Assembly (NCBI GenBank): GCA_903927345.1
Contig: CAIYMO010000049.1
Span: 1-64,000 of the forward strand
DNA length: 64,000 nucleotides
Source: an uncultured Armatimonadota bacterium
GTDB lineage: Bacteria; Armatimonadota; Fimbriimonadia; Fimbriimonadales; Fimbriimonadaceae
Direction: 5' to 3'
Positions within the stretch are counted from its first letter, which is position 1; each line of letters opens with the position of its first letter. The position numbers and the translations under genes were made by a program. Under the pieces are notes generated by a model. That model was not told the origin of the DNA, did no database searches, and worked only from the letters and a program-made list of their open reading frames with translations. This document shows, one piece after another, positions 19,368 through 27,613 of the stretch.

Positions 19368-20783
19368 TTAGTAGCGGTAGGAATCCGGCTTGTACGGACC
19401 TTCCGGTGTCACGCCGATGTACGACGCCTGCGAAGGGGTCAACTCGGTGAGCTGGGCGCCAAGCTTCGCCAACTGGAGCCGCGCGACCTTTTCGTCAAGG
19501 TGCTTCGGAAGAACGTAAACGCCGGGCGCGTACTTGCCAAACTCGGCGAAGAGCTCGATCTGGGCCAGGACCTGGTTGGCGAACGACGAGGACATAACGT
19601 AGGACGGGTGTCCAGTTCCGCAGCCGAGGTTGATCAGTCGACCTTCAGCAAGGAGAATGATCCGCTTGCCATCGGGGAAGATAATGTGGTCAACCTGGGG
19701 CTTGATGTTTTCCCACGTGTACTGCTTAATTCCGGCGACGTCAATTTCGTTGTCGAAGTGACCGATGTTGCAAACAATCGCTTGGTCCTTCATCTTGAGC
19801 ATGTGCTCGTGGCGGATGATGTCCTTGTTTCCGGTGGCAGAGACAAAGATGTCTGCCTTGTCAGCGGCGTACTCCATGGTCACTACTCGGTAGCCTTCCA
19901 TTGCCGCTTGGAGAGCGCAGATCGGGTCACACTCGGTGATCCAGACCTGTGCGCTGAGGGCGCGGAGAGCCTGAGCCGAACCCTTGCCAACGTCGCCATA
20001 GCCACAGACCACTGCGACCTTGCCAGCGATCATCACGTCGGTTGCTCGCTTGATTCCATCAACCAGCGACTCTCGGCAACCGTAGAGGTTATCGAACTTC
20101 GACTTGGTCACAGAGTCGTTGACGTTAAAGCATGCGAACGGCAGTTTGCCTTCTGCGTGAAGTTTGTAAAGTCGCTTGACACCCGTGGTGGTCTCCTCGC
20201 TAACCCCCTTAATCTCAGCCTTGATGCGCGAATAGAAGGTGGGGTCGGTCTTGAGCTTTTCTCGGATTGAAGCGTAGAAGATAACTTCTTCTTCTGAGCC
20301 AGGGTTGTCAAGGACTGAAAGATCCTTCTCTGCTTCCGCGCCGATCAAAACGAGCATCGTGGCGTCACCACCGTCGTCGAGAATCATATTCGGGGTAGAG
20401 CCGTCCGCCCACTCCATGATTCGGTGGGTGTACTGCCAATACTCTTCGAGAGACTCACCCTTGTAGGCAAACACAGGAATGTTTGCAGCCGCGATCGCCG
20501 CAGCAGCATGGTCTTGGGTGCTGAAGATGTTGCAGCTCGCCCAGCGGACTTCTGCACCGAGGTCCACCAAGGTTTCGATAAGAACCGCGGTTTGGATCGT
20601 CATGTGGAGCGATCCGGCGATCTTTGCGCCCTTGAGTGGCTTCGATCCGGCGTACTCCTTTCGGATCTCCATCAGGCCGGGCATCTCGGTCTCGGCAATT
20701 GCGATCTCCTTGCGCCCGAAAGCGGCAAGGCCCAGATCGGCAACGTGGAAGTCAATTTTGAGGTCAGCAGGGGCTGTGTTCAT
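19368..20783 (-). CDS. ahcY: Adenosylhomocysteinase (SAH hydrolase)
   Basis: A 471-aa enzyme with the family's usual features: [25 protein letters not shown], the NAD-binding [15 protein letters not shown], the substrate-gating [13 protein letters not shown], and the C-terminal KPDSYRY that reaches into the partner subunit. It hydrolyses S-adenosylhomocysteine to adenosine and homocysteine, closing the methyl cycle. AAGGA just upstream of the ATG serves as ribosome binding site. The leader carries an SAH riboswitch and a terminator, so expression should rise when SAH accumulates. Confidence 0.97.
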
Positions 20784-20818
20784 TTGTTATCCTTTCCTTT
20801 GTTTGTCGGTCAGGAAAC

Positions 20819-20850
20819 AAAAAAGCCCATGACCAACTTCGATCATGAGC
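20819..20850 (-). terminator. Riboswitch-controlled intrinsic terminator upstream of ahcY
   Basis: On the reverse strand GCTCATGA and TCATGGGC pair (one G-U) across a 10-nt loop, followed by six T residues. The 5' arm overlaps the last four bases of the aptamer's pseudoknot strand GGCGCTC (20847-20853). A ligand-bound aptamer should therefore block terminator formation. Confidence 0.8.
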
Positions 20851-20906
20851 GCCGTTTATTCGCCGAGCCTCGCCACTCGAAAGTGACTGCAACGCCCCTC
20901 GGCTAC
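20846..20906 (-). ncRNA. SAH riboswitch aptamer
   Basis: Read on the reverse strand, the segment matches the SAH riboswitch layout. GCCGAG and CTCGGC form P1. GGGGCGTTGCAG precedes a second stem GTCACT/AGTGGC capped by TTCG. The conserved GAGGCTCGGC is followed by AAACGGCGCTCA, whose GGCGCTC can pair with GGGGCG as the pseudoknot. It lies about 60 bp upstream of ahcY, the gene this riboswitch class usually controls. The match is by eye; a covariance-model search would settle the borders. Confidence 0.88.
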
Positions 20907-20911
20907 TAACT

Positions 20912-20917
20912 ATTATG
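20912..20917 (-). promoter_or_regulatory. Probable -10 element of the ahcY riboswitch transcript
   Basis: CATAAT on the reverse strand lies 6 bp before the aptamer's first base, which would put transcription start almost exactly at the aptamer. No convincing -35 hexamer is seen. Confidence 0.35.
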
Positions 20918-26299: not shown

Positions 26300-26859
26300 T
26301 GCGGCAAGAGATTGAACTGTTTCGCGCAATCCACCTCGGTGCGAAAAGTCCGATTCTTGATTCAGTCTCGCTTCTGTTCAGCTGGTCGGCTCTCGGCTGG
26401 TCCCCGCCCTTGATCGCGGTTCTACTGGCGTTTCATCCGAAAACTCGTACGTACACAGCACCGATCTTGCTGTCTTCGCTGCTGGGAGGGCTCATCCTCG
26501 TGCACGCGGTAAAGGATGCGATGCCCCGCCCTCGGCCAAGTAACTTAAGCTTCGCTCAACCGATGGAGGAGCACAAGCAGTCGAGTTTCCCTAGCGGACA
26601 CACGTCCCTGGCGTTCTGCACGGCAACCTCAGCACTCTGGGTCGCCCGACGCCGAGGGCACCGCTATGTAGGCGCGGTGATGCTCCCCTGGGCGGCGCTA
26701 GTGGGTTGGAGCAGGGTGTACAGAGGCGTGCACTGGCCGAGCGACGTCGTTGCTGGAGCATGCGTAGGCTTGCTCATGGGCTCACTCGTCGAATTAGCAC
26801 TCATGAAGTTCGGCGGCGGCGGCGAATCGCAAGAAGCGAACCGACAGCCAACGCAGTAA
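26299..26859 (+). CDS. PAP2-family membrane phosphatase
   Basis: A 186-aa multi-pass protein with the three acid-phosphatase motifs: KDAMPRPRP, PSGHTS and SRVYRGVHWPSD. These residues hydrolyse lipid phosphates such as undecaprenyl pyrophosphate or phosphatidic acid at the membrane surface. The last 59 bp overlap the convergent PEP-CTERM protease gene. Confidence 0.9.
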   Translation: MRQEIELFRAIHLGAKSPILDSVSLLFSWSALGWSPPLIAVLLAFHPKTRTYTAPILLSSLLGGLILVHAVKDAMPRPRPSNLSFAQPMEEHKQSSFPSGHTSLAFCTATSALWVARRRGHRYVGAVMLPWAALVGWSRVYRGVHWPSDVVAGACVGLLMGSLVELALMKFGGGGESQEANRQPTQ

Positions 26860-27613
26860 GGGTTCCCGGCTCGGGGACGACACTAGCTCCGTTCTGTACC
26901 AGCCAACCATTGTAGGCACTCAGGTCCGCGGCGCCTGAGGCAAAGAAGTTGTTTGGGTCGTTGCTGAATGTGAAGTTCGAATTGTAGGTTCCGAAGGTGC
27001 CAATCCAAGAATTGATTCCAACAAGCTGGGGGCGAGCGGAACCATCGTTGAGGAACCATCCGCCGCCAGAATCGCCTCCAACGAGAGCTCCCTGACCGTT
27101 CGATCGCAAAGGAGCGTAAAGCGAGTGAAGCTTAAGAACACCGGGTTCCTCAACGTAAACTTTGCCTTCAACGATCGCCGAGGCTTTTCTTCGTGTCCCA
27201 GCGCCGATGTAGATATCGTATCCTGTTCCGGCAAGGTTCACAGAACCCGATCCGCCAAAGCCGACCATTGTTACGCCCGTGTTGGCTGCAACGGAAGCAG
27301 TGTTGATCTGAGCATAGTTCGACAGGGTGATCGAACCAGTGTTGATCCGGAACAGTTTGAGGTCATCGGTCGGGTGCTCTCGGACAGTGCCGTTGATTGC
27401 CGAGAACGTACCGAGGCCCGGGAAGTTGACCGAAAGCCCACTGACGTGTTTTGCCGTCAAAATCAAATCTGGACCTACAAGTACAGCAGACGCCCCACCG
27501 AAGAATCCAACACATCCAAAGTCTGATGTGTGGGTATCTGTCGGAAGGCCTGGTGCAACAGACAACGAGGTAGCCGCAAAACCGAAAGCGATGAGCCCGG
27601 CAAAGTAACGCAT
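26801..27613 (-). CDS. PEP-CTERM trypsin-like serine protease
   Basis: A 270-aa exported protein. After a signal peptide (AGLIAFGFAATSLSVA) it shows the chymotrypsin-fold triad: His56 in TAKHVSG, Asp83 or Asp84 in PTDDLKLF, and Ser182 in GGDSGGG. The C-terminus is a PEP-CTERM sorting tag: VPEPGT, a hydrophobic helix, then RRRRR. Such tags are read by an exosortase in organisms making an exopolysaccharide coat; no exosortase gene is in this window. It overlaps the PAP2 gene tail to tail. Confidence 0.9.
   Translation of the reverse strand: MRYFAGLIAFGFAATSLSVAPGLPTDTHTSDFGCVGFFGGASAVLVGPDLILTAKHVSGLSVNFPGLGTFSAINGTVREHPTDDLKLFRINTGSITLSNYAQINTASVAANTGVTMVGFGGSGSVNLAGTGYDIYIGAGTRRKASAIVEGKVYVEEPGVLKLHSLYAPLRSNGQGALVGGDSGGGWFLNDGSARPQLVGINSWIGTFGTYNSNFTFSNDPNNFFASGAADLSAYNGWLVQNGASVVPEPGTLTALAVGSLLAIRRRRRTS

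Follow-up and report, generated by a model that had tools for sequence, protein, structure and literature searches.

The S-adenosylhomocysteine (SAH) hydrolase gene ahcY in a stretch of DNA from an uncultured Armatimonadota bacterium (64,000 nucleotides, here called the window) is preceded by a short structured leader, which raises the question of whether SAH itself controls the gene and, if so, at what level of expression. The core target of SAH riboswitches is ahcY, a gene that laboratory E. coli does not have (PMC4239095), and the class is reported to prefer SAH over SAM by 1000-fold (PMC7367207). SAH riboswitches have been placed in the beta/gamma-proteobacteria and Mycobacteriaceae, and horizontal transfer has been suggested (PMC3766115). 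Our literature search, which did not reach the primary SAH-riboswitch literature, returned no mention of riboswitches together with Armatimonadetes or Fimbriimonas.

An SAH aptamer lies directly upstream of ahcY

A cmscan search matched the Rfam SAH model RF01057 on the minus strand at 20904-20840, over the full length of the model (positions 1-78), with a score of 49.6 bits against a cut-off of 37 and an E value of 3.8e-6 for the whole 64-kb window. The original prediction had assigned the element to the SAH class by eye and had set a covariance search with the SAH model beforehand as a test; the score bears out the assignment, and the interval that had been marked, 20819-20906, correctly bounds the aptamer plus the U-tract. 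The RF01057 search found no second strong SAH element in the same genome, the next match scoring 19.5 bits, under the cut-off. The SAM/SAH riboswitch RF01727 had no match within the 64-kb window; that class resembles the SAH riboswitch in having a related ligand and in using a pseudoknot, but it has a different fold, lies before metK in Rhodobacterales and switches translation off (PMC7367207; PMC2864571).

The Rfam alignment defines the helices of the aptamer, all on the minus strand. P1 is formed by GCCGAG (20898-20903) and CUCGGC (20862-20867), and P2 is the hairpin GUCACU-UUCG-AGUGGC (20872-20887). The pseudoknot P4 joins GGGCGU (20892-20897) to the complementary strand GCGCUC (20847-20852). 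From its 5' end the leader consists of CATAAT, AGTTAGT, the aptamer from 20904, a hairpin, six U residues, a ribosome-binding region and the ahcY ATG at 20783. As had been proposed, the next gene on this strand is ahcY (20783-19368), which stands alone at the locus. It encodes a 471-residue SAH hydrolase of the beta/gamma-proteobacterial type, for which the best PDB match is the adenosylhomocysteinase 3d64 (E 2.7e-232). The protein is 99% identical to AhcY of Fimbriimonas sp. D15.bin.35, and the genome is close to Fimbriimonas. Membership of the RF01057 family makes SAH the expected ligand of the window aptamer.

The pseudoknot strand is also the foot of a terminator-like hairpin

An independent pattern scan identified a putative intrinsic terminator at 20850-20825 on the minus strand, consisting of 11 pairs and a loop of 4, followed by TTTTTT. 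The 5' arm GCUCAUGAUCG (20840-20850) pairs with the 3' arm UGGUCAUGGGC (20825-20835), and the U6 tract occupies 20819-20824. Calculated without pseudoknot or ligand, the folding energy of this hairpin is -13.9 kcal/mol compared to a mean of -4.0 for shuffled sequences (z = -5.2), and the remainder has only -4.3 kcal/mol when the foot pairs are removed. From these features the hairpin and its U6 tract would be expected to terminate transcription in vivo.

The two structures compete for the same bases. GCUC at 20847-20850 makes up the 3' end of the pseudoknot strand GCGCUC and at the same time the foot of the terminator 5' arm, exactly as the original prediction had it. The overlap in the window comprises four pairs only and is shorter than in most relatives, where all of GGCGCUC pairs with the bases just ahead of the U-tract, and the window terminator ranks with the weakest of the 64 discussed below. 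The downstream partner of the P4 strand is the terminator arm at 20835-20825; the purine-rich ribosome-binding region AAGGAAAGGA (20790-20799) is outside both aptamer and terminator.

Both pairings are conserved and covary in Armatimonadota

RF01057 matches were obtained in 70 of 291 Armatimonadota genomes. One match (G267) was rejected, having a score of 29.9 bits (below the cut-off) and no terminator-like leader, with the genome's AhcY on another contig. The 69 accepted loci come from f1, which is the family of the window, from another family, f10, and in a single case from a genome of a third family. This last element (L147 in G054), the sole riboswitch outside f1 and f10, comes from a genome that is 73% complete, where it shares a 3.7-kb contig with a truncated, 84%-identical AhcY; it represents either a transfer or a mis-binned contig. 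At one locus (L163 in G163) the downstream ahcY is interrupted and continues in a second frame, through a frameshift or an assembly error.

The mechanism of the original prediction, in which bound SAH holds the pseudoknot strand, the terminator is kept from forming and ahcY is turned on, implies that both of the mutually exclusive pairings should recur on one strand in other genomes. They do recur, and each of the two covaries. In 64 of the 69 loci a U-tracted hairpin starts inside the P4 strand, compared to 3.5% of controls in which the sequence downstream had been shuffled. Across these 64 loci 383 of 384 cells of the P4 pseudoknot are paired, and the exchanges seen there include A-U to G-U and G-C; the shared GCUC is paired in the terminator in 64/64 at each position. 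In the upper stem of the terminator the sequence varies freely, yet 367 of 384 cells are paired; under permutation the mean was 242 and the highest value 274. The permutation swapped partners among genomes and does not remove relatedness, but the occurrence of G-C, A-U, C-G and U-A at a single position goes beyond relatedness. P1 covaries in the set of 69 loci. In one genome (G134) GCGCUC has become GCGCCC, with a matching G on the pseudoknot side as well as on the terminator side.

The terminator is absent in five loci. Three of these (G016, G128 and G133) have a hairpin that lacks a good U-tract. In the other two (L188 in G031 and L189 in G006) there is no terminator and only a few bases separate the P4 strand from the ribosome-binding site; the output of these two loci may therefore be translational.

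The transcript probably begins with the aptamer

The original prediction also held that a -10 box sets the transcript start at the first base of the aptamer. The -10-like hexamer CATAAT (20912-20917, minus strand) has no preceding TG, and because the pattern scan found no sigma-70 -35 element for it the promoter claim is weak from the window alone; 37% of shuffled sequences contain a -10-like hexamer by chance. What does stand is the spacing. In 59 of the 69 Armatimonadota genomes the distance from the end of a -10-like hexamer to the aptamer's GAGG is 9-13 nt; in 35 genomes the hexamer is preceded by TGn, as in extended -10 promoters. This conserved spacing indicates that the transcript most probably starts at the first bases of P1, at about 20905-20904.

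If transcription starts at 20904, the RNA contains all of P4 at +58 and the full terminator stem at +80, and the U-tract ends at +86. The most recent RNA is partly covered by the polymerase, so the P4 strand would be exposed only shortly before the stop decision, and control is likely to be exerted through the rate of folding.

Proteobacterial leaders carry the same aptamer with a different hairpin

For comparison we used a set of 62 proteobacterial SAH leaders. The elements of the two groups share P1, P2 and the P4 pseudoknot, their position before ahcY, and a P4 strand in common with a competing downstream hairpin. They differ in the nature of that hairpin, which is an intrinsic terminator in the window and mostly has no U-tract in proteobacteria, where the P4 strand is often paired downstream too. 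By a loose rule, a hairpin with a U-tract starting in the P4 strand is found in only 3 of the 62 proteobacterial leaders (L215, L222 and L061). The hairpins of L215 and L222 extend into the beginning of the coding region and are thus more likely start-site hairpins, whereas L061 may be a terminator. Many of the proteobacterial hairpins cover the Shine-Dalgarno sequence or the start codon; L218 (CUCAUACUUUUU...GAGGAGUAUGAG-ac-AUG) and Undibacterium (CUCACGUU...GGCGUGAG) are examples, and this arrangement suggests translational control in these leaders. The Armatimonadota form thus appears to combine the same aptamer with a transcriptional in place of a translational output. The gene context also differs, in that ahcY is alone in the window whereas the proteobacterial operons often include metF (PMC4239095). 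Within the proteobacterial set, one riboswitch (L235 in G417) precedes a gene whose start resembles metH (methionine synthase) and not ahcY, and one genome (G298) has two SAH riboswitches above the cut-off (L202 and L205).

A model for control of ahcY by SAH

The sequence data show a match to the aptamer, two pairings that exclude each other and that are jointly conserved, with covariation, in 64 relatives, and a conserved -10 spacing. We put the probability that the leader is a cis-acting SAH riboswitch that switches ahcY on by antitermination at about 0.85. According to this model, the aptamer would start at the transcript 5' end or within a base or two of it. When SAH is absent, 20850-20840 would pair with 20835-20825 to form the intrinsic terminator, and transcription would end at U6 before ahcY. 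When SAH is present, the P4 pseudoknot (20897-20892 with 20852-20847) would be held, which would remove the four terminator foot pairs adjoining the U-tract, so that the polymerase would read on, SAH hydrolase would be made and SAH would be cleared. The direction of control, with SAH turning ahcY on, is deduced from the overlap between P4 and the terminator. As in other transcription-antitermination (ON) riboswitches, the ligand-bound aptamer is predicted to withhold one arm of an intrinsic terminator; unlike ON riboswitches in general, the window element has no separate antiterminator helix, and the pseudoknot strand of the aptamer itself is the competitor. Using the pseudoknot strand of the aptamer as the terminator foot makes for a compact and testable design.

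Two other readings of the leader were weighed against antitermination. SAH might turn ahcY on mainly through translation, the hairpin and U6 being incidental; the translational appearance of the proteobacterial leaders and the two Armatimonadota loci that may be translational would fit this possibility, but a U-tract is kept directly after the hairpin in 64 of 69 loci, and the ribosome-binding region of the window is about 20 nt past the U-tract and belongs to neither structure. We consider a mainly translational mode very improbable. The aptamer might alternatively be SAH-like in shape with a ligand preference that has changed in this lineage. The aptamers of the window and of two very close genomes (G015 and G018; loci L157 and L159) have a G directly before AGGCUC, where nearly all other loci have C or U (CC/TC/CU, compared to CG in the window), and an effect of this C-to-G junction change on ligand binding is possible. 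A changed preference nevertheless has to be reconciled with a score well over the cut-off, with an otherwise intact conserved core, and with the observation that the gene after the riboswitch is always ahcY wherever it can be read in Armatimonadota; we regard it, too, as very improbable.

Origin of the gene and its riboswitch

Several AhcY types occur in Armatimonadota. The riboswitch was found in all 68 genomes that have an AhcY of the window type (approximately 72-100% identical to that of the window) and in 0 of 194 genomes with other AhcYs; in one additional genome (G008) it is near a contig end, and no AhcY was found in the genome. Three genomes of the window's own genus contain a distant AhcY type and no riboswitch. 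A genome scan showed that the closest AhcYs outside the phylum, mainly from beta/gamma-proteobacteria and Geobacteraceae, are 73-80% identical, compared to 61-67% or under 50% between the riboswitch-linked AhcYs and the others of the phylum. Among the 19 nearest of these outside AhcYs that we checked, 17 have the riboswitch; the two that do not are Geobacteraceae. A Prochlorococcus single-cell record (L082; AG-409-P01) has a 74%-identical AhcY of the proteobacterial type and no riboswitch. Because the riboswitch occurs in Armatimonadota only with the beta/gamma-proteobacterial type of AhcY, gene and switch probably arrived together, and joint arrival by horizontal transfer is the best reading of the distribution.

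A careful tree placed the riboswitch-bearing Armatimonadota AhcYs inside the beta/gamma-proteobacterial set with support of 100/97. Families f1 and f10 fall apart in this tree, and for this reason we speak of entry once or twice: two entries are preferred over one (lnL difference 14.4), although with few phyla sampled a single entry is not rejected by the AU test (p = 0.27). Vertical inheritance within Armatimonadota, with loss or replacement of ahcY and riboswitch in most families and no contribution from beta/gamma-proteobacteria, would be compatible with AU tests that, again with few phyla sampled, do not reject a single clade of Proteobacteria (p 0.145) or a single clade of all full-type Armatimonadota AhcYs (p 0.114). 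It is at odds with the position of the riboswitch-bearing AhcYs in the tree, with the bootstrap trees, none of which keeps the Proteobacteria together, with the higher identity to proteobacterial AhcYs than to others of the phylum, and with the difference in AhcY type among genomes of the window's own genus. We therefore regard vertical inheritance as unlikely. Somewhat better than even, in our estimate, are the chances that ahcY and its riboswitch came from proteobacteria, once or twice, and that the strand was then rewired in the new hosts from a translational to a transcription-terminating output. If true, this would be an example from nature of a transferred riboswitch whose expression platform has been replaced.

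The riboswitch class is known. Its terminator platform is a variant specific to this lineage; it is conserved in two Armatimonadota families and goes with an ahcY that looks transferred. These loci extend the SAH class to Armatimonadota, beyond the beta/gamma-proteobacteria and Mycobacteriaceae of the surveys, and the 69 loci set against the 62 proteobacterial ones provide a data set on the change of output between translation and transcription with the aptamer unchanged, possibly after transfer between phyla. Elsewhere in the window, the minus-strand gene at 26801-27613 encodes a trypsin-like secreted protein, the end of which resembles a PEP-CTERM sorting signal (VPEPGTLTALAVGSLLAIRRRRR).
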